In this document: piece after piece, positions 12,118 through 58,217 of the stretch
Position numbering within the stretch: the stretch's first letter is position 1
How the letters are laid out: each line of letters starts with the position of its first letter
Origin: Zanthoxylum bungeanum
Lineage: Eukaryota > Streptophyta > Magnoliopsida > Sapindales > Rutaceae
Length of the DNA: 64,000 nt
NCBI GenBank assembly: GCA_019454045.1
Contig: SKCR01034755.1
Location: forward strand, 1 to 64,000
Direction: 5' to 3'
The notes under the pieces: generated by a model
What the model saw: only the letters and a program-made list of their open reading frames with translations
What the model was told of the DNA's origin: nothing
Databases searched by the model: none
Translations under genes and position numbers: made by a program

Positions 12118-13871
12118 TTATTTTTTATCACCATCCACATCATTCAATATGAAATACATGGCCTCCATCTCAGGTTCATCAAGTGAAAGGTTGGCAATTT
12201 CAAGTATTCCAACATCTTCAAAAGAGCCAAATTCATCTCCACTTAAATCCCACATCTTAGTTTGTTCAACATAATATTGTGGGTTTCTTCGTAATAAAAG
12301 TCGAAGATTATTATGAACAAAAACCAAATCTTCTGCACGTTTTGGAGTTAATTTACTCATTCTCATCGAGTTGACAAATGAATATGTACTCCAATTTCTT
12401 TCATAACAATATGAAGAAGATGGTTGTCCAAGTAATTTGAAAGCGATTTTTTTGAAGCAAATGAGCACTTACACCATGAATAGCCCACCAACACTTAGCT
12501 TCCATATTATACCTATTTACACATATTTATATATATATAAATATGTTTATTAATTTCCAAACACAATTCAAATAATTGAAATTCTACCTATTATGAAGAG
12601 AATCCGAATCTGCAAAGTCTCCCATTTTAAGTGAGAAATTAGCAAATTCAGTATTGACTTTTGTGCGATCTTCTAAGTCTGGAAAAAATCTTTTGAAGCA
12701 TTTAGTTCTCTCTCTAGAGATCTCTGCATCTTTATGTGAAGGAACCCTAGATGAATCTTCACTCGACCATCTAACACTATAATACCTTCAATTTATAAAA
12801 ATATATTTATTATGTTAGATTTTTTCATTCGTAAAAAATAATTGAACGTAAATAATAGAAATAAATATTACCTTGGATTTAATGAATGAGTCAAACAATG
12901 AAGAGGTGTATTATTCTTTGTCCAACGATCAATTAAAATTATGTAAACCACGTCCCAAAAAGAAGATGACCCATTTAATCTTTTCCCTTCTTGCTTATAT
13001 ATAGCATTTTTCACCTTTTCAATCATAGAATCTCACATCTCATATACCAAATGGAGACATGGTTTATCTGTGTCATAAACTCTAATCATGTCATATATTG
13101 GTTCAGTAAAAGAGAGAATATAATCAATCTGACCCCACCAAAAATCATCAAGAATCTTATCTTTTACAAACTTAGCTTTGTTTAGATCATCCTCACGGTA
13201 AGAAGACCATGCTTCACTAATCACCATTGATTGGAGACCACGCTTAATATGCTTAAACCTCTTAAGCATCACAATCACCGATGCAAATATTGTTTCTGCA
13301 ACTGAAAGTAATTTCAAATGAACAAATCTATTGAAAATTGCCAATCTCATAGAATGGTTCATAATGAAATTCTTGATTTGCATGGCATCTCCATGAATAT
13401 CAGTGATCCAACTACATTCTTTATAGGTGTCCCAATTACTTTCGATATTTTTTGCTGCACAAATATTTTTCAATGCAAGATTGAGAGTATGAACAACACA
13501 TGGTGTCCAATATATGTGTGGAAACAACCCTTCAATAATTTCTCCCGCACCTTTACAATTTCTAGCATTATCAGCGATCACTTGGAGAATATTATCATGT
13601 ACAACTTCATTTATAACTTCTTTCATCAACTCAACAATGAAATACTTGTCCTTTACATTATTCGAGCAATCAACAGCCTTAAGAAACATTGGACCACTAT
13701 CACTAATAACAATAAAATTAATCAGTGGCCTCCTTTGTGAATCACTTCATCCATCACTTACGATGCTTACACCATTTTCCCTCCAACTGAATTTAATTGG
13801 TTCTAACAATCTTTCCATATTTGATTTCTCTTGTGTAAGTAAAGTACTTCTTAAAGCATTATAACTTGGAG
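12118..13871 (-). pseudogene. hAT transposase, catalytic and dimerisation parts, decayed
   Basis: This continues the frame from 28832. Visible blocks are PPSYNALRSTLL and VSIVSDG (a DUF659-type catalytic region), PMFLKAVDCS, a NARNCKGAGEIIEG segment, HIYWTPCVVHTLNLALKNIC, and further on ERNWSTYSFVNSMRMSKLTP with LVFVHNNLRLL, the hAT C-terminal dimerisation domain (12260-12430). Introns appear near 12800-12870 and 12480-12590. A TGA stands where the SDGW tryptophan is expected (13747-13749), and another TGA follows VYEM near 13030. It is non-functional. Confidence 0.85.
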
Positions 13872-13876
13872 GTACA

Positions 13877-15801
13877 TGACTGGTGCGTAATCACACGTGT
13901 ATAACGCAAGCGCACGTATCGTTCAAGTAGTATAAAAAGTATCGATCCCACGAAAACTTAATACCTAATCTATTAATTTTATGAGGTCAAATGATTACTA
14001 GTATCTAACAGGTTGATTGATTGATTTGAAATGATGTTGATTTTAAATTTAAAAACAAGTAAATAAAATTACACGAAAGTAGGTTTAAGAAAATTCAATA
14101 TTAGGAAACTATCTAGGGTTGTGAATCTTCCAATATCATTTTAAAGATGAAGTGGTTATTTCATTTTTGTGTAATATATCGGTTTACTAACCTAGAACAC
14201 TAAATTATGCGAAAGCCTTTGTCGATGGTCAGACACAAATACCCAGTATAACCCAATTGAACCATATGTCTATGTCAACCAAATTATCTGGATTCATTAA
14301 GTTTAAGTTCCAATTATGGCTACCCCCGCCCGACAGGTATATGTCTATCCTGTAAGGAAATCTATTAAAGGTTTATCTATCCTCAAGGAAGATCGTGGGC
14401 TATTAAGTTTAAGGCTGAAACCTAAAATTCATTTGTCAAGTTTATTTTAGATTTACCATATCAATCTTATTAATGGCCAATTAATAAGACGCATTAAGCT
14501 TAAGACTTAATAAGTAAACCTTTGAATTACCCAAACTATAAAATAACCCCTTATAAACCGGTGATATTAGAATTCATCACAATCCCAGATAACTAACTTA
14601 GTTACGACATATAACTAGGGCTAGTAAAAACTTAAATAAAATAAAAGACATAAAGTAAATGCTGAAAAGTAAATTGCTGAAAAGTAAATGACGGAAAGTA
14701 AATGCTGAAATTAAATACTGAAAATTAAATGCTGAAAAGTAAATGCTGAAAGTAAATTACTGAAAAATAAATGCTGAAAGTAAATTGCTAAAAAGTAAAT
14801 ACTGAAAGTAAATTGCTGAAAAGTAAATAAAGTAAAAGTACAATAAAAGAAAATATTGAGGTAAAAGGTTCCACTTTTATTACTTCTATTTTAGATATCT
14901 CCTTTAATATAATATATTAACTTTGCATGATAATTACCAACCAGCCATATAAGCGTTATCTAGATTAAGTGAAATTAATAATTAATTACCAACCGACCAA
15001 TCAGGTGGTATCCAGTTTAGTCAGGTTAAAACCAATTAAATAATTACCAACCGACCAATATGGCGGTATCCTCGTTAAGTCAGGTTTTAACTAGTTTATA
15101 TATTATAAACAAACAAGATATAATCTTCTTAGTATTCTTAAGGAATTCCTTAGAAGAAAGTATGGATTTACAAATGAAATGGCTTGGTATTTATAGGCAA
15201 AATTTTGCCTCCATCAAATCATCCACCAAATCCATTATTAATTGCTCCACTAATTGCTTCACCAAATCCATTATTAATTATTCCACTAATTTCTTATCAT
15301 GTTTGGTGGTGATTTGATAATTTTTATTATTTATTTATTAATTTATTTTTTGCTTTGAAAATGATTGATAATGACTTTAATAATTACACACAACACACTT
15401 CTGGATGGTTCATCAATTTCGGGCATGAAATATTCAGAATTATTTTGTCTTTCAAAGTTGTAGATCTTTGAGTCTTCTTTAATCTGGAACTTGAATCAGC
15501 TCAATCCGATATCGGAGTAAAAATTTATGCCCAAAATACAACAGATGCGCAAAACTGGAATTTCCAAAACTGCACTTCGTTAAAACGCCCTTTCAAGTTT
15601 CCAATCTCCAAAATTAATATGTCAAGTCCAATTTTTGCCCTTATTTGACCCACATTTCGTCCTAAATGATTTCATTGTGTCCCAATATTATTTTATCTGC
15701 AAAATAAACTAAAACACATCAAAACGTTAATCAAACCAGAGAAACTAAACAAAATATTAAGTAAAATGGGCGTTAAATATTGATATATTTTCCGCTCATC
15801 A
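13877..15801 (-). repeat. 3' LTR of the Athila-like LOG-carrying element
   Basis: On the minus strand it starts TGATGAGCGGAAAATATA after the polypurine tract and ends TTACGCACCAGTCA. It is 1,925 bp. It includes a minisatellite of ~14 bp (tgctgaaa(a)gtaaat) and three ~65 bp copies of a block with ATTACCAACC(A/G)(G/A)CC (14935-15080). Compared with the 5' LTR, a ~190 bp stretch is absent. Confidence 0.9.
14655..14850. repeat. Minisatellite in the LTR, unit ~14 bp
   Basis: At least ten degenerate copies of TGCTGAAAAGTAAAT in a row. The same array is in the other LTR at about 27485-27660, with slightly different copy order. Minor blocks recur at 28010-28110. Confidence 0.8.
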
Positions 15802-17134
15802 CACCCCCAAACCTAACATTTTGCTAGTACTCGAGCAAAAAAATAAAATAAAATACAAGAAACAATTAAAATTAAACTAAGCCACTTTCGTAGGGATCAC
15901 GGTTGCATTTAGCATATGCAACAAGCCTTTAAACCCCCAGGTGTCCCTAGTGGACGAGTTATAGTCTCGTGAGGGCTTATATCAACGATACCCACAAACG
16001 TTTTACAAAAGTAAAAAGATAATAAAACTAATGCACACAAAAGCAAAAAATTCAAGAGAAAATAGAATAAAGAAGTTAGTGACTAATCAGGTGAAACTTC
16101 TACTCCAAGTTACTAGTTGTTTTCTTTCTTTCTAAATTACTGAAAAAATAAATTCTCCGATTATATTTACCATTCTCCATATGCACAGCCGACAAAATAT
16201 TAATCAACTCATTTTTGCCCACAACAGTCACAAGTGCATTTGATAAGAGAGTAATATTTTTGTTCTAAAGTTTTATCAGAATTCACATCTTTTTGCAGCA
16301 ATGGAATAATTTTTCTGAATTTTCTGATTTTTTTCTTTGATTTTTGATTTTTTTTTATTTATATACAATATCTTCCATCTATGTAGCGAGTGTTGGGTCG
16401 GTGGCTCCCAAACCAGTCGGCTTTAGGGCACCAGGTGTTAAGACACCCCTACAGACTTAATAACTCAGACTTCAGATATATATATTTTTGCAACATCCTT
16501 GATCCATGTAGCGAGCTTTGGGCCAGTGACTCCCAAACTAGTTGGTTTTAGGGCACTAGGTGTTAAAACACCCTTACAGACTTAATAACTCGGACCTCAG
16601 ACTTTTTTTTTTACTCCATCGCTTTTTATAGATGCTTCCTCCAATTAAACTAGAGCACTGAATATTTCAAACTTTTCAATTACAACTCATGTTTGTATGT
16701 TACAATGTATGCTGATAATACCTGTCAACTGAGTATATGAAGATCCATTTTAATCAGTTTTATGGAGAATTTACAAATTAAATAATTCAAAAGGAAATAA
16801 ACAAAAATTAACTTGTTTCGGAAATAGGTTTGAAATACGTCTCAGGAGTGGAAACTCCTTACTCAGCTATCTCTTACCAATTTCACATTTTTTAGTCAAA
16901 ATAAAAACACAAAAGCGCAAAATATTTTTGTAATTTTTGAAAAAAATTCAATTTTTTTTTTGTATTTTTCGAAAACTTTTGGACTAAAAATAAAAAACAC
17001 ACATAACTAAAACAAGATACTGATAAACTAATTTCCTCCCCCAAACCTAAATGAGACATTGTCCCTAATGTCTTAAACTGTAGAAGAAGAGTTTAGAAGA
17101 TAATACCTGGTTAATTGAAATTCTACAAGAAAAG
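15802..17134 (-). other. Non-coding tail of the LOG-carrying element, with polypurine tract
   Basis: On the minus strand this lies between the LOG stop and the 3' LTR. It holds the polypurine tract (GGTTTGGGGGTG at 15802-15813), the PPT-proximal block shared with two other Athila-like elements (15881-15977), oligo(A/T) runs, and a ~100 bp direct repeat (16376-16480 and 16504-16603) built on 'gtagcgag', 'agggca(c)caggtgtta' and 'cagacttaataactc'. No ORF is seen. Confidence 0.6.
16376..16603. repeat. ~100 bp tandem duplication
   Basis: Two copies at 16376-16480 and 16504-16603, about 85 percent alike by eye, each from CCAT(C/G)TATGTAGCGAG-like sequence to CTTAATAACTC. Confidence 0.75.
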
Positions 17135-17512
17135 TTAAAGGTTAAGATCCAGATTAATCCGACGCCTCTTACCACGATCGTCCTCGGACCAATTTATCTT
17201 TGAAAGGTTAGGGTCAACTTGTGATTCATAGGCTAAGATTTGGTCAATAAGATCCGGAGCAGTTCTGGCAGTAAATATGAGTTCTTTCATAGGTTTTGAC
17301 ACGAACCCATTTCTCCGGACATCATCAAGAAACACACAAAGAAAATCATAAAATCCTTCAACGTTGTACAGTCCAAGCAGTTTCTGGTGTATGTTCAAGT
17401 TTGCCCAAGATAATACTGTAAAAATTTCCTCCAATGTACCCAAGCCACCTGGCAAAGCAATAAAAGCATCAGCACGGTTAATCATTTCTACCAGTCGTTC
17501 AGACATACCTGG
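17135..17512 (-). pseudogene. LOG-like cytokinin riboside 5'-monophosphate phosphoribohydrolase, C-terminal part
   Basis: LOG enzymes release active cytokinin bases from their riboside monophosphates in cytosol and nucleus. This part begins in PGMSERLVEMINRADAFIA and carries the family's PGGxGTxxE motif (LPGGLGTLEE). It is followed by a helix-rich tail ending DDRGKRRRINLDLNL. The Arg of the usual QRK pair is present (SERL), with Lys replaced. It is intronless and joins in frame to 22681-22961. With one copy of CCTGG the joined frame is 654 nt, 217 codons plus stop, the size of plant LOG proteins. The extra C-terminal basic cluster and LDLNL are unlike the LOG proteins I know. The gene is broken by the Tat-like element. 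Its location inside an LTR element argues for capture of a host mRNA. Confidence 0.9.
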
Positions 17513-18654
17513 TGTGGGACACAGAAACTGAGCGACGCCGTTCCTAGGCTCGCGGCCTAATTGGGAAGGATTACATAACATGGAGTCGCCACCCGGTGTG
17601 AACCGGGACAAAGATTTAAGGCCGCACTCACCCCTCGCAAGGGAAGACCTCAAACCGTTGGGTTCGGAATGGTCCCTTACTTATGTCACTTGTAATGAAA
17701 GGATTCATGTAATAATTTAACTAAGCTTAAGTAACACTTATTTCCAATAGTATCATGCTTCTAAATTCATATGCATACATCAACAAGTTCATCACAACAT
17801 GCAACATCACATGGCAATCTCATGAACATATTTCAATCCTATGATATGGAAACTAAGAACAACATAATCATGATTGAATACAATCCTGAGAACACATAGA
17901 ATGGATAAATGCAGGGATACAAATAATGTGGTTGGCTATATAACACAAGAAAGATCAACCAAGAGGCAATTATGCATGAATATGATAAGACAGACTCAGT
18001 TCAGTGTGTGCGCGTTCGTGTAGCGTTCGTAAACGCGTTCGAACGGTAAACAGAAGGTTCGCGTTCGTGTAGCGTTTGATAACGCGTTCGAACGGAAATG
18101 AGACAGAATGCGCGCGTTCGTGTAGCGTTTGATAACGCGTTCGAACGGAAATGAGACCTGATGCATGATAAGGCAAAATGTATGCGCGTTCGAGTTGCGT
18201 TTGTTAACGCGTTCGAACGGACACGGACCTGATGCATGATAAGGCAAAATGTATGCGCGTTCGAGTTGCGTTTATGAACGCGTTCGAACGGACACGGACC
18301 TGATGCATGATAAGGCAAAATGGAATGCAATACATAAACAGAAAATAAAGGGGCGCGGCGAAGTACTGCCGTAAAGGTGGCCTTTTGGGGCTAATTGGGC
18401 TGGATGTGAGGCTAGCAGCAAAACCAGAATTACCGACACCGTTCGAACGCTTACTCGAACGCGGCACGAACTCCCGCAATCCGTTTGACGTTCGAACGTA
18501 AACACGAACGTAGCACCAACGAAAACAGTGAACCTTGTTTATTCTGAATTTCCCCTTCCGATGTCCGTTTCCCGTGACCTCCGTGACTTAAAAGGTAGTG
18601 TCTCCAAAATGAGACTCATCATAGGGACTTATGTGTAAAAATGCAGTGCCTACA
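17513..18654 (-). repeat. 3' LTR of the Tat-like element
   Basis: On the minus strand it runs TGTAGGCACTGCATTTTTA to CTGTGTCCCACA. It contains five units of a ~58 bp CGTTCGAACG palindrome repeat (18003-18300) and a weaker pair near 18440-18520. The LTR ends directly at the LOG C-terminal half. Confidence 0.92.
18003..18300. repeat. CGTTCGAACG palindrome minisatellite, unit ~58 bp (left LTR)
   Basis: Each unit has GCGTTCG(T/A)G(T)(A/T)GCGTT, a short spacer, AACGCGTTCGAACGG, and a variable linker such as AAATGAGAC or ACACGGACCTGATGCATG. The core is palindromic, and the flanking GCGTT...AACGC arms can pair. Frames through it read as repeated (R)SNALSNATRTR and similar, which I take as repeat artefacts, not protein. 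Confidence 0.85.
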
Positions 18655-18879
18655 GTCGCCCCCACTTTGATGGGACTTGTGTAATGTGCAACAGTGACAA
18701 TCCTATCAAAGTTATGCAATGCATTTCTACTTACCTGGCTCGCCAGCTGCCACTTGACTTACCATGTGTCGAGTTGAGTTGATTTGGTGGTGAGATGCTG
18801 CGACCCCTGGTTCATTCCCGACCGTGCTCTATTTTTAGAGTGCCATTTTCGGCCTGTTCCTTCCTGAATTGTATTGAGA

Positions 18880-19530
18880 TGAGGCTTTATTCCTCCCGAG
18901 CTTTATTCTCGAACTGCTGACTGTGTAGAGATAGGGCTTTATTCCATGATTGTTTAGACTGTGGGCTTTATTCCCGAACTGAACTGGCATGAGGCTTTCT
19001 TCCCCTTGAGCTTTGTTCTCAAATTATACTGATATGAGGCTTTCTTCCCCTTGACCTTTGTTCTCAAACTATACTGATATGAGGCTTTCTTCCTCTTGAG
19101 CTTTTTTCCCGAACTGTGTTGATATGAGGCTTTATTCCTCGGGGCTTTATTCCCGAACTTATACTGATATGAGGCTTTCTTCCTCTTGAGCTTTGTTCTC
19201 AAATTATACTGATATGAGGCTTTCTTCCCCTTGACCTTTGTTCTCAAACTATACTGATATGAGGCTTTCTTCCTCTTGAGCTTTTTTCCCGAACTGTGTT
19301 GATATGAGGCTTTATTCCTCGGGGCTTTATTCCCGAACTTATACTGATATGAGGCTTTCTTCCCCTTGAGCTTTGTTCTCAAACTTATACTGATATGAGG
19401 CTTTCTTCCTCTGGGCTTTGTTCCCTGACTGTGTTAACTGTGGGCTTTGTCCCCGAACTGTACTGAATGTGGGCTTTATTCCCGTACTGAGCTGGATGCA
19501 GGCTTTCTTCCTGAACCGAACTAGATGCAG
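18880..19530. repeat. Tandem repeat field 1, unit ~60 bp
   Basis: Repeats of GATATGAGGCTTTCTTCC and TTGAGCTTTGTTCTCAAA, with a higher-order ~180 bp duplication (about 19005-19185 repeated at 19185-19365). Long open frames on the minus strand (KKASYQY repeats) simply follow from the repeat period being divisible by three. Confidence 0.85.
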
Positions 19531-19559
19531 GCTTTATTCCTGAACTGTTACTGTAAGGT

Positions 19560-20340
19560 GGTCCATTCCCGGACCGTTACTGTGAGGTGGTTCATTCCCG
19601 AACCGTGCTTCCATTCTTGGAGTGCCATTCCCGGCTTGTTCATTCTTGAACTGTCCATTCCCGGACCATATCTCTATTCTCGGAGTGTCATTTCCGACTT
19701 GTTCATTCTTGAACTCTGCTCCATTCTTGGATTGCCATTCTCGGCTTGTTCATTCTCGAGCTGTCCATTCCCGGACTATATCTCTATTCTCGGAGTGCCA
19801 TTCTCGGCAGAACTGATCTGATGTAATGTGGGCCTCGCCCCCAGAATGCCATACCCGGCAAGACTGATACTGATGTAATGTGGGCCTCGACCCTGGGACT
19901 CATTCCCCAAACTGATGTTGAAGTGGGCCTCGGCCCCAACTGCTACTGACATGGGCCTCGCCCCTAGATTGATGCTAATGTGGGCCTCGACCCTCGGATT
20001 CATTCCAAAATTCTGCTGATGCGGGCCTCGGCCCTGGGATTCATTCCCTGGATCCATTCCAAAATTCTGCTGATGCGGGCCTCGGCCCTGGGATTCATTC
20101 CCTGGATCCATTCCAAAATTCTGCTGATGTGGGCCTCGCCCCTGAACTGATATTGATATGGGCCTCGCCCCCAGACTGATATTGATATGGGCCTCGCCCC
20201 TAGACTGATACAGATACGGGCCTCGCCCCTGTGACTCATTTCTGAAATTGCTGACATGGGCCTCAACCCCGGGATTCATTCCAACACTCTGACGATGTGG
20301 GCCTCGACCCTGGGACTCATCCCCAAAACTACTACTCATA
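19560..20340. repeat. Tandem repeat field 2, CCATTCCCGG and GTGGGCCTCG(C/A)CCC units
   Basis: The first part (19560-19810) has repeated 'attc(c/t)cggac' and 'cttgttcattct' words. The second (19815-20330) has ~13 copies of TGGGCCTCGNCCC followed by ACTGATATTGATA or GATTCATTCC. It includes a direct ~66 bp duplication around 20020-20125. It is shared with no other part of the window. Confidence 0.85.
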
Positions 20341-21535
20341 TGTTACTGATTCTGGTTGTCTTATCTTTGCCGCTTTCTCTTTTTCTCTTCTGAAACCTGT
20401 TATTACAAAACAGAACAAACACAAAAGGGATGCAAAAATGTGTTACGTGTATGCATGCATGCATGATTGGGTTTCCTATCCCATTGAGCTAGGTCTTCTG
20501 CCAGTATTCTTGGTGGCTGCTTGGTCTTTTGACAAGTCTGTCATCTTCCCTAACCAACATGCATCTATGATGGCTTTTAAATCAAAAGGGAGTTAACATG
20601 GTGCATGTATGCATGAGGTGCATGTGATACATGTGATACAAGAAATATATCAACTCTTTAAAATTTGCACACAAATCGGCCCATCATCATTTTAGAAGTT
20701 TTTGGGCTAACTGCCATAGGAGTGGACTCGTCCCAGTTTAAATGGCCCAACGAGTTCACATCTCATGACAAGGAGTCCAACTAAATCCAAATGGTAATGT
20801 TCCGAACACAAGCACAAAGAAAGATAATGCAAACATACAACAATAATTTCTACAATGGCTCATCAACATTTCAGAAGCTTTTGGCCTAATGGTCATAAGG
20901 TACGAACTTGCCCCAGTTTAAATGGCCCAACAAGCCCGCATTTCTGACAATAGTCCAACTGCATCCAAATGAGGATGGTCCACAAGCACATATTCAAGGA
21001 AATAATTGTTACTTTAGCCAACCCGGTCTATAGGTGGGTTAGTAAGAGTATAGACAAAGGCTCTCACCGGCGAAGGATGGCCCACAACTAGGTCTCCCCA
21101 CTCAAGGGTTCGAGCAACCAAGTGAGCGCACCCTTTTTTATACACTAAGGTACGTACCAATGAGCTATGGTGTGTGACGGACTGTCAAATGGATTTCCCG
21201 TTGTAGATTCCCCAGAGGGAAGGTGGAGAGAGGCTCACTTAAATACCCAAGCCTCTTAGGCTCTTATCGCTTGGTGTCAGGAATAAACAACGAGTCCTCC
21301 AAATTAGTCCATCACAAAAGGCTACGAGTAGATGGCTATCTAGGTGCCTTCACAGCTTTTCCTTCTAGAAAGGTAGTGAATGAAGGAAGACACCAAACCA
21401 TTGCCTAGCCCAAAAATGCCTTTAATTAAACCCTTACTTTGTCCACTATAGACACGGTCAATTAAAACACAAATCCAAACATCACAAGTCAATATTTCGG
21501 GGCCAATTCTCTTATCCCCAGTGGAGTCGCCAGAC

Positions 21536-22680
21536 TGTGGGACACAGAAACTGAGCGACGCCGTTCCTAGGCTCGCGGCCTAATTGGGAAGGATTACATA
21601 ACATGGAGTCGCCACCCGGTGTGAACCGGGACAAAGATTTAAGGCCGCACTCACCCCTCGCAAGGGAATACCTCAAACCGTTGGGTTCAGAATGGTCCCT
21701 TACTTATGTCACTTGTAATGAAAGGATTCATGTAATAATTTCACTAAGCTTAAGTAACACTTATTTCCAATAGTATCATGCTTCTAAATTCATATGCATA
21801 CATCAACAAGTTCATCACAACATGCAACATCACATGGCAATCTCATGAACATATTTCAATCCTATGATATGGAAAACTAAGAACAATATAATCATGATTG
21901 AATACAATCCTGAGAACACATAGAATGGATAAATGCAGGGATACAAATAATGTGGTTGGCTATATAACACAAGAAAGATCAACCAAGAGGCAATTATGCA
22001 TGAATATGATAAGACAGACTCAGTTCAGTGTGTGTGCGCGTTCGGTAGCGTTCGTAAACGCGTTCGAACGGTAAACAGAAGGTTCGCGTTCGTGTAGCGT
22101 TTGATAACGCGTTCGAACGGAAATGAGACAGAATGCGCGCGTTCGTGTAGCGTTTGATAACGCGTTCGAACGGAAATGAGACCTGATGCATGATAAGGCA
22201 AAATGTATGCGCGTTCGAGTTGCGTTTGTTAACGCGTTCGAACGGACACGGACCTGATGCATGATAGGCAAAATGTATGCGCGTTCGAGTTGCGTTTATG
22301 AACGCGTTCGAACGGACACGGACCTGATGCATGATAAGGCAAAATGGAATGCAATACATAAACAGAAAATAAAGGGGCGCGGCGACTAGTACTGCCGTAA
22401 AGGTGGCCTTTTGGGGCTAATTGGGCTGGATGTGAGGCTAGCAGCAAAACCAGAATTACCGACACCGTTCGAACGCTTACTCGAACGCGGCACGAACGCC
22501 CGCAATCCGTTTGACGTTCGAACGTAAACACGAACGTAGCACCAACGAAAACAGTGAACCTTGTTTATTCTGAATTTCCCCTTCCGATGTCCGTTTCCCG
22601 TGACCTCCGTGACTTAAAAGGTAGTGTCTCCAAAATGAGACTCATCATAGGGACTTATGTGTAAAAATGCAGTGCCTACA
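21536..22680 (-). repeat. 5' LTR of the Tat-like element
   Basis: Direct partner of 17513-18654, with the same CGTTCGAACG array at about 22030-22330. Differences seen include GGGAATACC against GGGAAGACC, one missing GT in CGTTCGGTAGCG, and GCGACTAGTACTG against GCGAAGTACTG. Confidence 0.92.
22030..22330. repeat. CGTTCGAACG palindrome minisatellite (right LTR)
   Basis: Same five-unit array as 18003-18300, differing by small indels. The two arrays have kept the same unit order, consistent with recent insertion. Confidence 0.85.
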
Positions 22681-22961
22681 CCTGGCACAATTAGGTCTTC
22701 TCCGTTTGATGGTCCAATAAGATTTGCCTCTGCCAAGGGTTTTGGAATGATTCCCAAAACTTGACTGTCTCCCTCATGTACAGCTTTTGAAACAATCCTC
22801 ATAAGTCCAAGATTGCATCCGCCATATACTAAGTGCATATTCCTTGCAGCTAAGACTCGACCCAATTCATGTGCTGCCTCTACGTATTGTGGTTTAACTC
22901 CAATACTAGTACCGCAAAACACATCGATTTTTTCAACTCGTCTTCTTGAAATGGCTTCCAT
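22681..22961 (-). pseudogene. LOG-like cytokinin riboside 5'-monophosphate phosphoribohydrolase, N-terminal part
   Basis: It starts at ATG 22961 (MEAISRRRVEKIDVFCGTS). The Rossmann-like nucleotide-binding start VFCGTSIG and HLVYGGCNLGLMRIVSKAV correspond to the VFCGSSxG and GGGSxGLMG motifs of the family. Then come VLGIIPKPL and the break point at IVPG. It is intronless, whereas the plant LOG genes I know have several introns. It lies ~250 bp downstream of the unknown ORF at 23760-23212 in the same orientation. A splice-acceptor-like TATTTTTCAG ends at 23014, 52 bases before the ATG. Confidence 0.9.
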
Positions 22962-23211
22962 GTTTTACTCTGGATGTCTTCAAAAGTGTAATGATGAATT
23001 GAATTTATAAAACCTGAAAAATAGTGAGTAATAATAGCACAAGTATCTTCCAAATGATGATTAGTAGCAAAATATTAAAATAAACCGTGATAGTCAAAAA
23101 TGTCTGGATCATGTCGGAGAAAATAAAAGAAAATAACAAAATAAATTACAATTATTAGGAAAAGACACAGAGATATAATATGTACAAGAAATGTAGCGGC
23201 TTGAATGACGT

Positions 23212-23760
23212 CTATGCGTCAGGGACAAGCTTCCCATCCGATTTTCTTATAAATTGGCAAATAGGGTCTTTTTGAGTCAGATTCCCGAGACTTAACTGTT
23301 GTCTTTCTTTTTGGAATTGTGTATGTAATTTGTGAATGGCTATATGAACATATCCACTGGGATGTGTCTCAGGAGTCGAAGATATATCATCTAAAGACTC
23401 CTTACTCAAGCCATCCCTAATGAATTTAATTTTGTCTTCGCGATTATCAGACACAATTCCTAAAGAACGACAACGAGTATTGCAATTCCAGCGTGCACAT
23501 TTGTAACAAACACCCATTTGCTTAGCTCTACGTTTCTTTGCATAGGTGCTTCTTCTAAATCCAGACAAATAATAATTACAAGAATCAGAATACTCACCTG
23601 CTAATCGGACCCGTGCTTTGATTACCTAACGAATGTCATTAGGAATATCATGGATCATCAGTATTCTCATCCGTTCTAAGCGAGCTTTGTAGACTTTCAT
23701 CAGAGAGTTTTGAGGGAGAGAAGGAAATTGCTTGTGAAGATTTTCGAGAATTTCTTCCAT
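23212..23760 (-). pseudogene. Unknown basic ORF with CxxC...C...C motif, retroelement cargo
   Basis: The frame from ATG 23760 to the stop at 23212 spans 182 codons with a single in-frame TAG at 23628-23626 (codon 45). Protein similarity of composition continues on both sides, so I read the stop as a later mutation. The N-terminal 45 residues are helix-like (LHKQFPSLPQN, VYKARLERMR). The centre is very basic (STYAKKRRAKQMG), followed by CYKCARWNCNTRC, which could bind a metal. The tail has a KFIRDGLSKESLDD helix and a Gln/Lys-rich region. I do not recognise the family. It follows the integrase end directly and precedes LOG, where Athila elements have an env-like ORF. I see no transmembrane segment, so it is not an obvious env. 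TTTTTTCAG (ending 23777) and TTTCAG (ending 23762) lie just before the ATG. Confidence 0.6.
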
Positions 23761-23999
23761 CCTGAAATGTCTTAATCTGAAAAAACTAAACACACAAAAT
23801 TAAATCACACCAAATCATAATATATACACAAATTGCATGGGTTGCCTCTCCACTAGCGCTAAGTTTAAAGTCGTCAGCTAGACGTGACTTCTCGAACATT
23901 AGGCTGGATCTGAAAGTGTAACACATTTTTTTGTCGCTCAAATGATTCTCCCTAGTATTGTTTAACACGCTTGTTTTTAACCTTGAATGTTTTGTTGGA

Positions 24000-24445
24000 G
24001 TCGGGATCATATATCTCAACGGCTCTGTCTAGTAAAACCTTGGTATCACAAATGGACATAACCACCGTTATTTTGGCTTCCATGGGAAGAATTTCACCCT
24101 TGATTTGTTTAACAGTAACTTCTGCCCTTGTTCCAGTTGTATGAGCACTAACTTCTCATCATGTCTCTTCTTGGCCTTTTCTTTGTACAATTTGGCATCC
24201 TCAAAATATTGATTGTGAAATTCCTCCAATTCGTTGAGCTTGTGGAACTTTTTCTCTTATGTTGCTTGTAGTACAAGAATTGACTTTTTCAGTGTAAAAG
24301 ACGCTTTATCTTCAGGCTCCACAGGCAATTGACATGTTTTAAGTTTGTCAGTAGAATTTTGCATTGCATTAGAGGTCTGGATGACACTATTTATCATATC
24401 AAGTCTGAAACACTCCTCATTCTTTTCATCTTCTGGGAAATTCAT
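24000..24445 (-). pseudogene. Remnant of the integrase C-terminal region fused after protease
   Basis: The frame reads FKAMNFPEDEKNEECFRLD, then further on LNELEEFHNQYFEDAKLYKE, AKKRHDEKLVLIQLEQGQK, and, with frame breaks, IYDPDSNKTFKV near 24010. In Athila-type pol the ELEEFHNQ-like segment lies near the end of integrase. RT, RNase H and the integrase catalytic core are therefore missing between protease (24473) and this point. The pol end signature (KLSASGEATH) follows at about 23885-23840. Confidence 0.7.
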
Positions 24446-24472
24446 GGCCTTGAAAACATTGAATGTTACTTC

Positions 24473-24889
24473 TTAGTCATGTACCCTCATGGTTAATTCT
24501 CCTTTTTGTACATCAATAATGGTTCGACCTGTAGCCAAAAACGGTCTCCCAAGGATAATTGGCACGTCTGCGTCTTCCTCCATATCAAGGACAATAAAAT
24601 CTGCTGGGAAAATGAATTTGTCAACTTTGACCAGCACATCTTCAACTACGCCTCTTGGAAATACGAGTGTTCTATCAGTAAGTTGTAGAGAGACTGAAGT
24701 GGGCATTGTTTCTCCAATCTGCAGTTTCCTGAAAATAGAAAAAGGCATCAAGTTAACACTTGCACCTAAATCACATAAAGCCTTACCAAAGTTATGTTCT
24801 CCTATGATGCATGGAATGGTGAAACTGCCAGGATCTTTCAACTTCGGGGGAAGTTTCCTCTGAATGATGGCACTGCATTCTTCCGTCAA
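24473..24889 (-). pseudogene. Athila-like retropepsin (protease) domain
   Basis: The open frame has ECSAIIQRKLPPKLKDPGSF, the active-site-like CDLGASVNLMP and the flap/ILG region (DVPIILGRPFLATGRTIIDV). Athila-type proteases carry DLGA or DSGA in place of DTGA. The frame itself is intact over ~138 codons, but its polyprotein context is broken. Confidence 0.85.
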
Positions 24890-24949
24890 TGTTATTGTCT
24901 CGTAGTCTCCAATCTTCGTTTTCGTGAAAGAATGTCTTTCATGAATTTG

Positions 24950-26600
24950 ACATAGCTGGGCATTTGTTCCAAGGCTTCTGCAAATGGAATGTTGATGTGC
25001 AGCTTTTTGAACACCTCCAGGAAACGAGCAAACTACTTGTCCAGTTTGTTTTTCTGAAGATGCTGAGGAAAATGTGGAGGTTGAGTGATCTGTTCTTTTT
25101 CCTTTGCTTCTTTTTCCTCCATCTGTTGCTTTGTTTCTTTTGGAATATCTTCAATTGTTGCCTTGATTCCAACATCTTTGTTGATTTCAGTACCGTTTTT
25201 AACATGATGGCATGACATTGTTCATTTCCCATGTTCCTTGGATTTGGCTTTGTGTTGCTAGGAAGGGTACCTGGCGGTCTGTAACTCTGAGCATTGACCA
25301 ATTGTCCCATTTGATTTTCCAGTGCTTTAATAGAGGCTGAATGGATTTGATTCAATGCTACTTGATTTTGAACCATAGCTGCTAAAGCATCATATTTTGC
25401 TTCTTGCTTCTTCAACTGGGCTATCACTTCTATTATTCCTGGTTTTTTTTCATGCTTCTGGCATTTGTTCTGTTGCTAGAATCTATATGGTGGATAGTTC
25501 TGTTGTTGGAATCCCGATGGTGGATTGTTCTTTTGCCCTGAATTGTTGCTCCATGAAAAATTCAGATGATTCCTCCACCATGGGTTGTAGGTGTTGGAAT
25601 ATGGATTGTTCCTCTGTCTGTTGAAATTGTTGACATAATTCACCGTTTCTTCAAGTTGGTTTGGTTCTGGTGCTCCTCCATATGGTAAACTTGTGGATCC
25701 ACCATTAACTTTCATGTTAAGAGTTTCCAGATTTTTGCAAATCACATCCAGCTTGGAATTCAGTGTTGTGTTGGCTCAAACTTCATAAATTCCTGCAATT
25801 GTTTGGATCATGCTCATTTCTGTTGGCCATAAAGAATTGTTGTTGGCCATTTCTTCAATTAAGTCCCAGGCCTGATCTTCTCCTTTTGCCATCAAAGCTC
25901 CTCCAGCAGCAGCATCAATTGTGGTTCTCATTATTCCAGAAAGTCCATTGTAGAAGGTTTGGACTTGTAGCCACTTTGCGATCTCATGAAGAGGACATTT
26001 CCGGAGTAAATCTTTGAATCTTTCCCAAGCTTCGCAAAGGATTCTGAATCTTGTTGCACGGAGGATGTGATGTCATTCCTCAACTTTGCAGTTTTGGCTG
26101 GTGGAAAGTACTTTGCAAGGAATTTGGTGGCTAGAGTGTTCCAAGTTGTGATGGAACTTGCTGGTAACGAATGTAGCCAAGCTTTAGCTCTGTATTTCAG
26201 GGAATATGGAAAAACTCGTAGTCTCATAGCTTCTTCAGCTGCTCGGTTATAATTGAAAGTACCGCAAACTTCCAAGAAGTTGCTGATGTGGGCATTAGGA
26301 TCTTCAGTTGCATTTCCCCCAAACTGTACTGACTTCTGAATCATTAGGATCTTCAGTTGCATTTGCTGGTAAGGGAGGAAGTACAATACAGGAAATGAGT
26401 CCGTCAACCACCAGAATGGTTCTGTCTCGAATGGGAATCGGTGGTGCAACGTTCAAAGGTTCAGGTTCCATGCTAATGATTGCTTCTTGGCCTTCTCGTC
26501 TTTTCCTTCTCAACTGTCTGATGGTTCTTTCAATCTCTGGGTCAAGTGGTCGGAGTTCAAAGCTTCTGGTTCGTCTCATGTAGTGTCTGAGAACCTGAAA
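24950..26600 (-). pseudogene. Athila-like gag, frameshifted
   Basis: Retrotransposon gag motifs are clear: DPNAHISNFLEVCGTFNYN, MRLRVFPYSLKYRAKAWL, ITTWNTLATKFLAKYFPP and AKLRNDITSSVQQDSESFAK (26340-26040). Further down are Asn/Gln-rich and basic segments in shifting frames to about 24950. A local ~45 bp duplication (ATTAGGATCTTCAGTTGCAT at about 26296 and 26342) disrupts the N-terminal frame. The coding start lies near 26580 (MRRTRSFELRPLDPEIERT). Confidence 0.8.
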
Positions 26601-26686
26601 CAAAATAAAACAAAAACAATAAGAAAAAAGAAAATAGATACAAGTAACGTATCTAACCCCAAAACTAATAGTGAAAGATAAATAAG

Positions 26687-26704
26687 TCCCCGGCAACGGC
26701 GTCA
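26687..26704 (-). other. Primer binding site, tRNA-Asp type
   Basis: The minus strand reads TGACGCCGTTGCCGGGGA six bases inside the 5' LTR end. It differs by one base from the site at 58211-58194 (TGGCGCCGTTGCCGGGGA). Assignment to tRNA-Asp is from memory of Athila-type elements. Confidence 0.75.
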
Positions 26705-26710
26705 AAAACT

Positions 26711-28826
26711 TGACCGGTGCGTAATCACACGCGTATAACGCAAGCGCACGTATCGTTCAAGTAGTATAAAAAGTATCGATCAAACGATGACTTAATACCT
26801 AATCTATTAATTTTATGAGGTCAAATGATTACTAGTATCTAACAGGCTGATTGATTGATTTGAAATGGTGATGATTTTAAATTTAAAAACAAGTTAATAA
26901 AATTACACGAAAATAGGTTTAAGAAAATTCAATATTATGAAACTATCTAGGGTTGTGAATCTTCCAATATCATTTTAAAGATGAAGTGATTATTTCATTT
27001 TTGTGTAATATATCGGTTTACTAACCCGGAACACTAAATTATGCGAAAGCCTCTGTCGATGGTCAGACGCAAATACCCAGTATAACCCAATTGAACCATA
27101 TGTCTATGTCAACCAAATTATCTGGATTCATTAAGTTTAAGTTCCAATTATGGCTACCCCCGCCCGACAGGTATATGTCTATCCTGTAAGGAAATCTATT
27201 AAAGGGTTATCTATCCTCAAGGAAGATAGTGGGCTATTAAGTCTAAGGTTGAAACCTAAAATTTCTTTGTCAAGTTTATTTTAGATTTACCAGATCAATC
27301 TTATTAATGGCTAATTAACAAGACGCATTAAGCTTAAGACTTAATAAGTAAACCTTTAAATTACCCAAACTATAAAATAATCCCTTATAAACCGGTGATA
27401 TTAGAATTCATCACAACCCCAAATAACAAACTTAGTTACGACACATAACTAGGGCTAGTAAAAACTTAAATAAAATAAAAGACATAAAGTAAAATGTTGA
27501 AAAGTAAATTGCTGAAAAGTAAATGACGGAAAGTAAATGCTGAAATTAAATACTGAAAATTAAATGCTGAAAAGTAAATGCTGAAAAGTAATTATTGAAA
27601 AATAATTGCTGAAAAGTAAATGCTGAAAGTAAATTGCTGAAGAGTAAATAAAGTAAAAGTACAATAAAAGAAAATGCTGAGGTAAAAGGTTCCACTTTTA
27701 TTACTTCTATTTTAGATATCTCCCTTAATATAATATATTAACTTTGCATGATAATTACCAACCAGCCATATAAGCGGTATCCAGATTAAGTCAAATTAAT
27801 AATTAATTACCAACCGACCAATCAGACGGTATCCAGTTTAGTCAGGTTAAAACCAATTTAAATAATTACCAACCGACCAATATTGCGGTATCCTCGTTAA
27901 GTCAGGTTTTAACTAGTTTATATATTATAATTAAGGGAGATTAATCTAAATATTAGTAATAAAAGTTTTACCTTTTACCCCAGCAAAGGGGAGTTACCTC
28001 CTCATTACTGAAAAGTAAAAACTGAAAATTAAAGAAAGAAAAGTATTGTGCGTAAAAGTAAATTGCGGAAAGTAAAAACTGAAAAGTAAAGAAAAGAAAG
28101 TGCGAAAGCGGAAATTAATTACTGAAAGCTATAAATAAACAAACAAGATTCAATTTTCTTAGTATTCTTAAGGAATTCCTTAGAAGAAAGTATGAATTTA
28201 CAAATGAAATGACTTGGTATTTATAGGCAAAATTTTACCTCCATCAAATCATCCACCAAATCTATTGTTAATTGCTCCACTATTGCTCCACCAAATCCAT
28301 TATTAATTGCTCCAATAATTTCTTATCATGTTTGGTGGTGATTTGATAATTTTTATTATTTATTTAATAATTTATTTTTTGCTTTGAAAATGACTTTAAT
28401 AATTACACACAACACACTTCTGGATGGTTTATCAATTTCGGGCATGAAATATTCAGAATTATAAATTATGTTTCTTTAAAAGTTGTAGATCTTTGAGTCT
28501 TCTTTAATCTGGAACTTGAATCAGCTCAATCCAATATCAGAGTAAAAAGTTATGCCCATAATACGACAGATGCGCAAAATTGGAATTTCAAAAACTGCAC
28601 TTCATTAAAACGCTCTTTCAAGTTTCCAATCTCCAAAATTAATATGTCAAGTCTAATTTTTGCCCTTATTTGACCCACATTTCTTCCTAAATAATTTCAT
28701 TGTGTCCCAATATTATTTTATCTGCAAAATAAACTAAAACACATCAAAACGTTCATCAAACCCGAGAAACTAAACAAAATATTAAGTAAAAGGGGCGGTA
28801 AATATTGATATATTTTCCGCTCATCA
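26711..28826 (-). repeat. 5' LTR of the Athila-like LOG-carrying element
   Basis: 2,116 bp, direct partner of 13877-15801. It holds the same AGTAAAT minisatellite and ATTACCAACC blocks plus an extra ~190 bp at 27945-28140. It ends at TCATCA next to the duplication GTACA. Confidence 0.9.
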
Positions 28827-28831
28827 GTACA

Positions 28832-29391
28832 TAACCTAATAACATGTGGTTCGCTGTAAATTTGAATGAACTAACATAATAAGGGTTCCGAGCAATATTA
28901 AAAGGCATACATGTCGTATAGAACATTCTTGTTATCTTTGCATGTAGTTGATTACGATCTTCTATCTTAAAAGCCTTGTCGATGGTATATGATGAACTTT
29001 CAGCTCCATATGTCTTTCTTTTTTTAAAATCAAACTCAGTAGCACTAGTAGTATGAGGTAAAGATACTTTTCTTGGTGCCAAATTTTCTAATCTTTTTTT
29101 AGCTTTTTCCTCCAAACTTCTCATCTCTGCCACATCACTGGATTTTACCTTTTTACAAGATGCAATTCCTTTTTGAGGAATTTTCAACAAGTGAGCTCTT
29201 ACTCTTATGTAAGTACTTTGCTTATTTTCCTGACAAAACTTACATTCCCAACTTACATTTCCTCCACCATCACATTTTTTCTCTACTCGTTTGACATACC
29301 TCCAAAGAGGATTATTCCAATCATCATCATTTGACAAAGGTACGGTATCACTATCACTAACATTAGTAGCTGAAGAATTCATAGCCAACAA
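28832..29391 (-). pseudogene. hAT transposase, N-terminal part (BED finger)
   Basis: The frame starting at 29391 encodes a BED-type zinc finger region (WRYVKRVEKKCDGGG, then CKFCQENKQSTYIRVRAHLL and a later Cys; residues ~30-75), a basic linker, and the start of the catalytic region ending at FKFTANHMLLGYV. It is cut at the GTACA duplication of the LTR element. The next codons (PPSYNALRSTLL) are found on the far side at 13871. N-terminal BED fingers bind transposon ends. Confidence 0.85.
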
Positions 29392-46938: not shown

Positions 46939-49900
46939 ATGGTTGCTTTTCACTGCTCCGTGATCAAACGGTACTTTTTGCACAAACCCATCTCCTCATT
47001 TTCACTGTTATTGCTTTTAGTGGTCTTCTTCAGTGTAAACGGTTTCGTTATGGCCGGCACGGATGATAAATCGGTGCTGATTCAGTTCAAAAACTTGGTT
47101 TCAGACCCGTCTGGCCTGCTTTCGAGCTGGAATCCGAAAAATATCTCCGATCACTGCACTTGGTCTGGCGTGTTTTGTGACTCGAATTCGCGTGTGGTTT
47201 CACTTAACATTTCTGGGAGTGGCAAAGAAGGTAAATTTAGTGAAACTGCAAATGGGTTTCAATTTTCTTGTTCAGATTTAGATCAGCTTCCGATCTATGG
47301 TTTTGGTAGTAGAAGGAATTGTAAGGGTGTTAATGGAAAGCTGAGTGGGAAATTGTTGCCTGTGATTGCTAACCTTACTGAGCTTAAAATTTTATCTTTT
47401 CCTTTTAATGGGTTTGATGGTGAAATTCCTAATGAAATCTGGAGCATGGGAAACTTGGAAGTTCTTGATTTAGAAGGAAATTTGTTGAATGGATCCTTGC
47501 CTGATTCGGGTTTCCAGTTAAAAAATCTTCGTGTTCTCAATTTAGGGTTTAATAGGATTACTGGTGAGATACCAGCCATGTTCTCGGATTTTGTGAATTT
47601 GGAAGAGTTAAATTTGGCTGGTAATCTGTTGAATGGAATAGTGCCCACGTTTATTGGGAGGTTAAAAAGGGTATATTTGTCGTTCAATAAGTTTGTTGGG
47701 TCTGTGCCGAGTAAGATTGGAGAGAAATGTGAGAATCTTGAGCATTTAGATTTGTCAGGGAATCACTTGGTTGGTGGGATTCCACAGAGTATGGGTAATT
47801 GTTTTCAATTGCGATCATTGTTGTTGTTTTCGAATATGTTGGAGGAGATTATTCCAGCGGAATTGGGTATGCTTCAGAATCTTGAAGTATTTGATGTGTC
47901 AAGGAACAGTCTTAGTGGTTCAATACCTATTGAGCTCGGGAATTGTTCCAAATTGGCTATTCTTGTGCTCTCGAATCTGTTTGATGCATATGAACACGTT
48001 CGACATTCAAGGGAGGAATCTTCAGTGGAACAACTGAGTTTTATGAATGATGATTTTAACTTTTTTGAAGGTGGAATTCCTGAGACAGTTTCATCCCTTC
48101 CAAACTTGAGGATATTGTGGGCACCAAGGGCAACGCTAGAAGGAAACTTCCCTAGCAACTGGGGTGCCTGTGACAAACTGGAAATGCTCAATTTGGGTCA
48201 CAATTTTTTCTCGGGAGAGAATCTTGGTGCGCTTGGTCGCTGCAAGAACCTGCTGTTTCTGGACTTGAGCTCAAATCAGCTTACTGGAGAGCTTGCTCAT
48301 CTGTCAGTCCCTTGTATGACTGTGTTTGATGTCAGTGGAAACACCTTGTCTGGTTCAATCCCTGCATTCAGTAACATTGTATGCCCTCCCATGCCTTTGT
48401 TGAGGGGGAATCTCTTAGAGAGTTACAACCCATCTACAGCTTATTCATCATTTTTTGCAAAGAAAGCTCAGGTTGGGACACCCTTGCCATTTCTTGGAGG
48501 AGATGGTTATCTTGCAATTTTCCACAATTTTGGAGGCAATAACTTCACTGGCAGTCTCCCTTCCATGCCAATTGCTCCTGAAAGATTAGGGAAACAAACT
48601 GTATATGCATTTTTTGCTGGAGATAACAAGCTCAGTGGGCCTTTTCCAGGGAACATGTTTGAGGTATGTAATAGATTGGCGTCATTAATGGTTAATATTA
48701 GCAACAACAGACTGACTGGTCAGATTCCAGCTGAAATTGGTAGAATGTGCAATTCTCTTAAATTTATGGATGCATCTGGGAATCAGATTGTTGGGTCCAT
48801 TCCTCGTGGTATTGGGGAATTAGTGTCTCTTGTTGCTCTTAATTTAAGTTGGAACCTTATGCTTGATCAGATTCCGACCACTCTTGGGCAGATAAAGGGC
48901 CTAAAGTATCTTTCTTTGGCTGGTAATAACCTCACTGGCTCTATTCCTTCCAGTCTGGGTCAGCTTCAGGTATTGGAAGTATTGGATCTTTCTTCAAATT
49001 CTTTATCTGGTGAGATTCCAGGCGATCTTGATAACTTGAGAGATCTGACTGTTCTTCTTCTCAACAACAACAATCTCTCTGGGAAAATTCCCTCTGGTTT
49101 GGCAAATGTTTCTACGCTCTCAGCATTTAATGTGTCGTTCAATAACTTATCTGGACCATTGCCCTCAAGTAAAAATTTGATGAAATGCAGTAGTGTTCTT
49201 GGAAACCCTTCCCTACGTCCTTGCCAGGAATTTACTCTAACAGAACAATCTCAAGCGGTTGGGGCTGGAGATCCGAACAACTATGCTTCGGCACCATCAG
49301 AAAGTCCTCCAAGTAGTGGGAACCGTGGTTTCAATTCGATTGAGATAGCATCAATAGCATCTGCATCAGCCATTGTTTCAGTTCTTTTGGCTCTCATTGT
49401 CTTGTTCGTGTACACGAGAAAATGGAATCCACAGTCCAAAGTAATGGGTACTACTAGAAAGGAGGTAACAATTTTCACAGAGATTGGAGTCCCTTTGACA
49501 TTTGAGAGTGTTGTTCAGGCCACAGGTAATTTCAATGCGAGCAACTGCATTGGAAATGGAGGTTTTGGGGCAACTTACAAGGCAGAGATATCGCCTGGAG
49601 TCTTGGTGGCAATAAAACGGCTTGCTGTCGGTCGGTTTCAAGGGGTTCAACAATTTCATGCTGAGATCAAAACTCTTGGAAGGCTCCGCCATCCAAATCT
49701 AGTCACTCTAATTGGTTATCATGCCAGTGAAACAGAGATGTTCCTTATATACAATTATTTGCCAGGGGGTAACTTGGAGAACTTCATCCAGCAAAGATCT
49801 ACAAGGGCTGTGGATTGGAGGGTCCTTCACAAGATTGCTCTGGATATTGCTCGTGCTCTTGCCTATCTCCATGATCAGTGTGTACCACGTGTTCTCCATC

Positions 49901-50373
49901 GTGATGTCAAGCCCAGTAATATTTTGTTGGATGATGATTTCAATGCATATTTATCTGACTTTGGCTTGGCTCGGCTTCTGGGTCCTTCAGAAACCCATGC
50001 AACTACCGGAGTAGCTGGGACATTTGGTTATGTTGCCCCAGAATATGCAATGACTTGTCGTGTTTCTGACAAAGCAGATGTTTACAGTTATGGGGTTGTC
50101 CTACTTGAGCTACTTTCGGACAAGAAGGCTCTGGATCCCTCATTTTCTTCATATGGGAATGGATTCAACATTGTTGCATGGGGATGTATGCTCCTTCGGC
50201 AGGGTCGGGCCAAGGAATTCTTCACAGCAGGGCTGTGGGATGCAGGCCCTCATGATGATTTAGTAGAGGTTTTACATTTGGCAGTTGTGTGTACTGTCGA
50301 TTCTCTGTCTACCAGGCCGACTATGAAGCAAGTTGTACGGCGGCTTAAGCAACTGCAACCCCCTTCCTGCTAG
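46939..50373 (+). CDS. RPK2: RPK2/TOADSTOOL2-type LRR receptor-like kinase
   Basis: A single uninterrupted 1,144-residue frame, close to the 1,151 of Arabidopsis RPK2. In Arabidopsis RPK2 is a plasma-membrane receptor kinase acting in CLAVATA-type meristem signalling, anther and embryo patterning. Seen here: a hydrophobic signal peptide (residues ~18-38), an LRR N-cap with [17 protein letters not shown], about twenty LRRs interrupted by non-LRR stretches, a transmembrane segment near residues 803-825 ([20 protein letters not shown]) followed by TRKW, and a kinase domain from about 855. Kinase landmarks are the GNGGFG loop (~871), VAIKR Lys (~893), HRDVKPSN (H~987), DFG (D~1007) and the end [10 protein letters not shown], which matches the family. 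All catalytic residues are present, so it should be an active RD kinase. No introns are needed. It is convergent with the AFP-like gene, 430 bp away. Confidence 0.97.
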
Positions 50374-58007: not shown

Positions 58008-58193
58008 TAGGATCTGCCATTGCTTCTTTTTAAATTCACCTCGTACGAAAAAAAATATAAAATAAAATAAAATAAAATAAAAATAAAACTTAAGACAAAA
58101 ATAAAGGAAATAAAATAAAATAAAATAAAAATAAAATTCTAAATTAAAGCTAAGATTACTTGGTAGTAGTATTAATGTGAATTAAACAAACAG

Positions 58194-58211
58194 TCCCCGG
58201 CAACGGCGCCA
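58194..58211 (-). other. Primer binding site, tRNA-Asp type
   Basis: The minus strand reads TGGCGCCGTTGCCGGGGA six bases after the LTR end. It is the expected start point for minus-strand DNA synthesis. Confidence 0.85.
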
Positions 58212-58217
58212 AAAACT

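Follow-up and report, generated by a model that had tools for sequence, protein, structure and literature searches.

A window of 64,000 nucleotides of Zanthoxylum bungeanum DNA (contig SKCR01034755.1, positions 1 to 64,000; assembly GCA_019454045.1, 3.96 Gb) contains a retrotransposon with long terminal repeats (LTRs), within which lies a gene of the LONELY GUY (LOG) type. We think it probable, taking the reading as a whole, that this gene belongs to a selected LOG-carrying family of elements, that its substrate pocket has been altered, that its substrate has likely changed and that it benefits the element. In the proposed mechanism, a Ty3/gypsy family of many copies would include a large lineage in which two additional genes, one for a zinc-finger protein of the nucleic-acid-binding type and then LOG, stand between integrase and the 3′ LTR. 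The latter would derive from a plant LOG mRNA taken up long ago, as the missing introns suggest, would have been retained by selection as copies of the family multiplied, and would then have diverged. Its product retains the fold of LOG enzymes along with the PGGxGTxEE motif and both catalytic residues, Arg and Glu, but not the prenyl pocket. Made from the element transcript, it would most likely be an active nucleoside 5′-monophosphate phosphoribohydrolase whose substrate may no longer, or not only, be isoprenoid cytokinin nucleotides. It could help the element by shifting the nucleotide or cytokinin balance in the cell where it replicates. The copy in the window was broken later by a nested LTR element.

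In the window, the LOG frame lies on the minus strand in two parts, an N-terminal one starting with ATG (22961-22681, 93 codons) and a C-terminal one (17512-17135, 125 codons and the stop) which contains the PGGLGTLEE motif, the catalytic R and E and the tail RRRINLDLNL. With the CCTGG repeated at the junction counted once, the frame is 654 nt long, that is 217 codons and a stop, has no internal stop and equals intact relatives in length. The chance of a random open frame this long is 2.7e-7 at this base composition. Pfam recognises both halves (Lysine_decarbox, 3.5e-25, in the C half; LDcluster4, 3.1e-11, in the N half), and chain 2a33 of Arabidopsis At2g37210 also matches both (2.3e-24 and 2.9e-20). 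Compared with 18 relatives, the window sequence carries C13D and G49C, both at sites where the relatives do not vary, and G55R, at a site where 16 of the 18 have G. The two parts are separated by a younger LTR element of about 5.2 kb (17513-22680, no strand assigned). Its LTRs, of 1,142 nt (17513-18654) and 1,145 nt (21536-22680), differ by a Kimura two-parameter (K2P) distance of 0.009, and its CCTGG duplication (no strand) is found at 17508-17512 on the left, where it also forms LOG codons, and at 22681-22685 on the right. The single open reading frame (ORF) of 187 aa tested in this nested element had no Pfam match; the element holds 45-nt tandem repeats and another repetitive ORF (18938-19477, 19776-20339). 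The original prediction, made from the letters of the window alone, had described an intronless LOG frame in the orientation of the element, with the pol remnant on one side and the polypurine tract on the other, and this description is borne out. Both parts of LOG are there within one element, as it had said, but the window copy is broken by the nested LTR element. This copy is dead: it has the nested insertion, no reverse transcriptase (RT) or integrase core was found in it, its second gene contains a stop and its glycine motif is damaged.

The occurrence of LOG in other copies of the element, proposed as a check along with the original prediction, was studied in three sets of places in the same genome. 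With the C half of LOG and the 3′ flank as query (set 1), all 39 other places have LOG as a single stretch, 647-686 nt long, and 38 of them have the second gene upstream. With the second gene and the N half of LOG as query (set 2, 29 places out of the 39 listed besides the window), the C half was present at all 29 (28 distinct, L071 being dropped as the identical place to L041). An integrase match lies upstream in 29 of 29, and the integrase core is reached in 7 of them, with up to 1.5 kb of flank. With the 2a33 protein as query (set 3, 12 loci of at least 150 places, biased by protein score), all 12 loci have a full-length LOG (86-88% to the relative P0001). After removal of the one duplicate, 79 of 79 other copies read, each of them obtained with a query that includes part of LOG, carry the gene, about 654 nt in one stretch. 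The 150 best matches of the 2a33 query are all intron-free over query residues 2-5 to 195-196, and 145 of them are without internal stop. Intact frames number 13 of 39, 5 of 28 and 9 of 12 in sets 1 to 3, and, of these 27, 26 are exactly 217 codons long. LOG is joined to the same 3′ flank in 67 of the 67 copies aligned, and to a shared spacer and the second gene in most. A query of the 3′ non-coding region (15802-17000) gave 40 of 40 scored matches, best-scoring ones only. First-look candidate numbers (7,835; 12,859; 57,815; 10,909; 15,155) are a hint of abundance, not copy counts.

These data bear on how the gene came to be in the element. The original prediction saw in it a capture by this single element. 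A recent and private transduction of a host LOG mRNA by one element, with a product that still makes cytokinin, would explain an intronless frame that has the element orientation and stands where extra ORFs usually do. It is nevertheless very improbable, as the other copies read carry LOG as well, as identity to 2a33 is down to 42% for the window C half and 45% for the nearest full-length relative, as the clade of its relatives is deep and includes proteins from other sources, and as the cytokinin pocket has changed. Capture of an mRNA was a fair guess in view of the missing introns, but the event is old and has left no poly(A) or long host 3′ untranslated region. In the window, no poly(A) follows the LOG stop, and a block of element sequence begins about 15 nt after it. 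The same features make it scarcely credible that LOG is a processed retrogene, intronless as such genes are, put into one element by the machinery of a long interspersed nuclear element (LINE) and no component of the LTR element, since one 3′ flank accompanies the gene in all copies aligned, and in most a common spacer and the second gene as well.

The variants among copies show how LOG was kept. Single-step variants were counted in 78 LOG copies and called shared when present in four or more. Shared variants comprise 65 silent and 69 amino-acid changing ones, a ratio of amino-acid changing to silent changes (N/S) of 0.40 of neutral, whereas private variants comprise 63 and 197, or 1.17 of neutral (Fisher p = 1.6e-6 for shared vs private, a guide only, as are the other p-values, because shared descent makes the variants non-independent). 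In wrong-frame controls of LOG, shared N/S is 1.02 and 1.88. For the second gene, in 37 copies, shared variants give 0.49 and private ones 1.82 (p = 7.9e-6). A first pass, with shared meaning three or more, had used 38 copies of LOG (shared 0.54, private 1.21; dN/dS, as ratio of means, 0.41) and 37 of the second gene (0.66 and 2.08; dN/dS 0.57). These tests exclude one LOG, 686 nt long, and one second gene of 525 nt. Since shared variants are poor in amino-acid changes and private ones are not, selection on LOG during replication of the element is shown statistically. Against this stands the view that LOG, after a single capture, has ridden along passively and unused in elements mobilised by other copies. 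Private variants that look neutral, the low share of intact frames in sets 1 and 2, and the 21 of 39 places discussed below that may be without LOG all agree with that view. We consider it unlikely, because shared variants are constrained in both extra genes and not in the wrong frames of LOG, and because 18 members of the clade, with pairwise identities down to 54%, retain the motifs.

Searches with the window C half among 5.8 billion proteins gave, in the best 120 of 886 matches, 34 first clusters at 58-88% identity, followed mostly by poplar-type LOGs at about 50%. An alignment search (best 120 of 7,999) added LOG relatives, Xanthoceras and Reevesia genes among them. In trees with bacterial LOG as the outside, these relatives form one group beyond Arabidopsis LOG; canonical plant LOG stands there as two PDB chains only, which do not fix the donor branch. 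The window LOG groups with P0001 and with copies of its own genome (quick tree, 9 of 25 intact copies). In 116 aligned relatives of 195-260 aa, the six counted positions of the PGGxGTxxE motif are each kept in 111-116. Of the 116, 105 have a basic tail that ends with an LxLxL-like pattern, a tail that the two Arabidopsis chains lack in their matched parts; we take this pattern to resemble an EAR motif. The fold was taken from the relative P0013 rather than from the split window copy. Its model (pLDDT 83.5) has 2a33_B as best match (TM 0.95 by target) and shows the Rossmann-type LOG fold.

In poplar proteins annotated as 'LOGL10', the prenyl pocket is not the canonical one (7 of 7 rows of the poplar group; P0056, P0249, P0252, P0226, P0229 and P0230 include such proteins), and Xanthoceras models contain two consecutive LOG pieces. 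These models are perhaps element genes or gene-model artefacts.

In the LOG of Corynebacterium glutamicum, Arg99 and Glu122 were proposed as catalytic, and Met96, His97, Lys100, Glu125 and Trp129, identical in AtLOG3, OsLOG and CpLOG, as the prenyl site, whose roles are a structural inference in the part of that paper used here (PMC4979012). The window and all 26 intact genome copies of 217 codons retain the equivalents of Arg99 and Glu122. At the prenyl site, the window has S, L and T for His97, Lys100 and Glu125, and keeps Met96 and Trp129. All 26 intact copies have these three residues replaced, so that the canonical pocket is absent from them; Trp129 is kept in 26 and Met96 in 25. Among the 116 relatives, the catalytic Arg is found in 105 and the catalytic Glu in 113, His97 in 16, Lys100 in 5 and Glu125 in 5. 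The altered pocket defines one clade, 45 rows of a 53-row tree (support 98/93), and basal relatives retain the full canonical pocket. A gene model from Acer (P0216) joins pieces of the second gene to pieces of LOG; the LOG pieces, which do not cover the pocket, are closest to basal relatives (P0242, 77% and 95%). Because the basal rows are canonical and these Acer pieces are closest to them, the change of pocket may postdate the entry of LOG into the elements, a suggestion that rests on one gene model.

The original prediction held that the gene makes active cytokinin and could thus change growth of the host. This is doubtful, three of the five proposed prenyl-binding residues being replaced; given the pocket, activation of cytokinin by the element LOG appears less likely, and is unproven. 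An element LOG that is a true cytokinin-activating enzyme, with pocket changes that are tolerated, would raise cytokinin in the cells in which the element replicates and push these to divide. Retention of the catalytic pair and of Trp129, and nearly always of Met96, points that way, as do the canonical pocket of basal relatives close to the Acer pieces and the structural nature of the assigned prenyl-site roles (PMC4979012). We tend to doubt this explanation, and give it a minor chance, because replacement of the other three residues is general among intact copies and because the altered pocket forms a single well-supported clade.

The second extra gene (23760-23212, minus strand) encodes a zinc-finger protein of 182 aa in relatives and has one in-frame stop in the window. 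The window fragment scores 22.6 with Carla_C4, above the cut-off of 20.9, and 20.4 with Viral_NABP, under the cut-off of 23, which relatives of the gene exceed (P0121, 28.5; P0148, 35.8). Of 11 members, 10 match Carla_C4 and 8 match Viral_NABP at E 1e-3. Viral contigs searched for the second gene and LOG held no relatives. The structure model of the second protein was too weak for fold comparison (pLDDT 67.4, pTM 0.30). A fragment of the gene (P0192, a 293-nt contig) is filed under Clostridioides difficile. P0255 (LOG) and P0148 (second gene), both from JGI contigs of 4,511 nt, were considered as linked; this match is suggestive only and was not counted, 0.06 coincidences being expected over four JGI contigs longer than 1,450 nt.

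A 3.3-kb relative (L001) shows, in this order, integrase, the second gene and a GGACAATG...TTGGGGGG block resembling that of the window; LOG has no match in it. It is filed in a metagenome-assembled genome of Candidatus Nomurabacteria (DAIEQH010000041.1) and is probably plant contamination there. The LOG stop in the window lies about 15 nt before the block that aligns with L001 (score 79, shuffle maximum 62), and no alignment of the spacer between the second gene and LOG with L001 rose above shuffles (45, shuffle maximum 61). Because the spacer cannot be aligned, the LOG insertion point relative to L001 is fixed on the 3′ side only. As L001 has the second gene and the 3′ block without LOG, it seems that LOG was added to, or lost from, a family already holding the second gene. 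The spacer itself (22962-23211, minus strand) includes an acceptor-like TTTTCAGG. Spliced expression from such sites was considered and not retained: the site matches at 0.91-1.00 per base in 66 copies, no better than its surroundings (mean 0.89 for the spacer as a whole). A bolder proposal, which we put forward tentatively and hold to be possible without being likely, is that this lineage has built a virus-like cassette for host manipulation. It would combine a protein of the nucleic acid-binding protein (NABP) type, possibly suppressing silencing, with a neofunctionalised LOG acting on a new nucleotide substrate, and would have spread to perhaps thousands of loci, outnumbering the LOG genes of the host.

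Several observations weigh against the favoured reading. Every copy read came from queries holding part of LOG and from best-scoring matches, and most LOG frames in sets 1 and 2 are broken. With the 3′ flank and LOG C half as query, 11 of 39 other places aligned past 1500 (one of them via a second segment), 7 ended inside LOG at 1463-1476 and 21 ended before LOG. Two of these places were read, one of the 7 ending inside LOG and one aligned to 1660, and both have the whole C half. Because alignments at 21 places end before LOG, and none of the 21 was read, LOG-less copies may be common. A LOG-less copy with insertion scars round the LOG segment was not seen in this limited search, in which those 21 places were unread. 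L001 has integrase and second gene, yet no LOG and no visible scars. Only 4 of the 12 loci of set 3 showed the second gene, and outside the Zanthoxylum genome the gene pair is known from the Acer model only. The private N/S of the second gene exceeds neutral and is unexplained. The catalytic Arg is replaced in 11 of 116 relatives (Q in 10, L in 1), some of which may be inactive, and the 26 intact copies include T119I in 2, E121K in 2 and M96I in 1. The relatives with Arg to Gln include P0227, P0231, P0233 and P0239, several in one subclade, and are perhaps inactive or re-purposed.

The outer element (13877-28826, 14.95 kb, minus strand) is identified as an LTR retrotransposon by its two LTRs, its 5-bp duplication and its traces of gag and pol. 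The exact GTACA duplication claimed for it is confirmed, with copies at 13872-13876 on the left and 28827-28831 on the right (no strand). The 3′ LTR (13877-15801, minus strand) and the 5′ LTR (26711-28826, minus strand) differ by K2P 0.045 over 1,900 aligned columns. At a rate that we assume to be 7e-9 per site and year, the outer insertion would date to about 3 million years and the nested one to about 0.6 million years; substitution rates in woody plants are possibly several times lower. Next to the 5′ LTR is a primer-binding-site-like sequence (26680-26710, minus strand), presumably of the tRNA-Asp type. Remnants of gag (25931-26449; Retrotrans_gag, 4.3e-11), of an aspartic protease (24473-24889; RVP_2, E 0.0041, 17.4 bits, under the Pfam cut-off of 20.3) and of the integrase C-terminus (23928-24340; 37-41% identity to the integrase ORF of L001) follow on the minus strand. 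RT, RNase H and the integrase core were not found in the window element, so that protease and integrase C-terminus are what is left of pol. The 3′ non-coding region (15802-17134, minus strand) contains, at about 17036-17066, a motif GGACAATG...TTTGGGGG common to the LOG-less L001. The element appears to be Ty3/gypsy, with Athila-like as a candidate label only; this assignment is unproven because no RT was found in the window. The Athila ORF-1 domain PF03078, present in 16% of Athila elements (PMC6317226, in the part used), had no match in six internal ORFs of the outer element.

The insertion site is probably a transposase gene of the hAT type. The ORF on the left flank (13033-13689) matches DUF659 (8.5e-24), which we take to denote that type. 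The right-flank ORF (28756-29391) has no accepted Pfam match; with the element removed, its frame stays open 40 codons further (188 before, 40 after), a weak indication by itself. Elsewhere, the window holds a second LTR element (54123-59749; LTRs 54123-55645 and 58220-59749, K2P 0.050) with only 2.6 kb inside, a leucine-rich-repeat receptor kinase frame (46939-50373) of 1,144 uninterrupted codons, a NINJA/AFP-type protein with EAR and NLS domains (51982-52710, minus strand) and Copia-type gag and pol pieces (61316-62564).

Why plant LTR retrotransposons retain extra genes is an old open question, and most such ORFs match no known domain. The element LOG comes from an enzyme family that is well studied, down to its catalytic and pocket residues, and it shows marks of selection in a family of many copies, which makes a benefit to the element testable by a simple assay. 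There is also a warning for annotation, since the poplar 'LOGL10', Xanthoceras and Reevesia models fall in this one group of relatives and may be element genes.

A YgdH domain, linked to LONELY GUY, has been reported in Ty3/gypsy consensus sequences of Citrus sinensis, C. clementina and Populus trichocarpa (PMC9289625, crediting Steinbauerova et al., 2011). The likeness to the Zanthoxylum family is the LOG-type domain in Ty3/gypsy elements; gene order, a selection test, pocket analysis and a second gene do not appear in the portion of that account available. In the literature searched, as far as its texts extended, only this paper joins LOG or YgdH with LTR elements, and no paper carries a title joining viral NABP families with plant retroelements (titles only). 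The LOG domain in LTR elements is thus already in print, and, within the literature searched, the gene pair, the selection and the pocket change look new. The extra ORFs of plant LTR elements (aORFs or eORFs), common in the OTA superclade, are likewise in sense orientation, between pol and the 3′ LTR, and kept in many copies (PMC7264820, PMC6317226, as excerpted). Only 21.4% of eORF proteins match a known domain in a survey of ORFs of at least 250 codons (PMC6317226), whereas both genes of the Zanthoxylum element are shorter. Orchid Ty3/gypsy elements carry an ALKBH5-like RNA demethylase with activity in vitro, likewise a host-type enzyme acquired by a gypsy family and kept through replication. 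In the passages considered, its cofactor-binding residues are conserved (PMC9289625), whereas the Zanthoxylum LOG is a different enzyme with a changed substrate pocket, known from sequence. The second gene resembles the NABPs of carlaviruses and allied viruses in that its zinc-finger core and the next stretch match Carla_C4 and Viral_NABP above Pfam cut-offs, but it encodes a 182-aa protein of a plant retroelement and homology is shown for the matched stretch only. Compared with type I LOG (At2g37210, chain 2a33; C. glutamicum, 5its), the element LOG is alike in fold, PGGxGTxEE motif and catalytic Arg/Glu. It differs in the replaced prenyl-pocket His, Lys and Glu, in a basic tail ending in LDLNL, and in being present in many copies on a mobile element.

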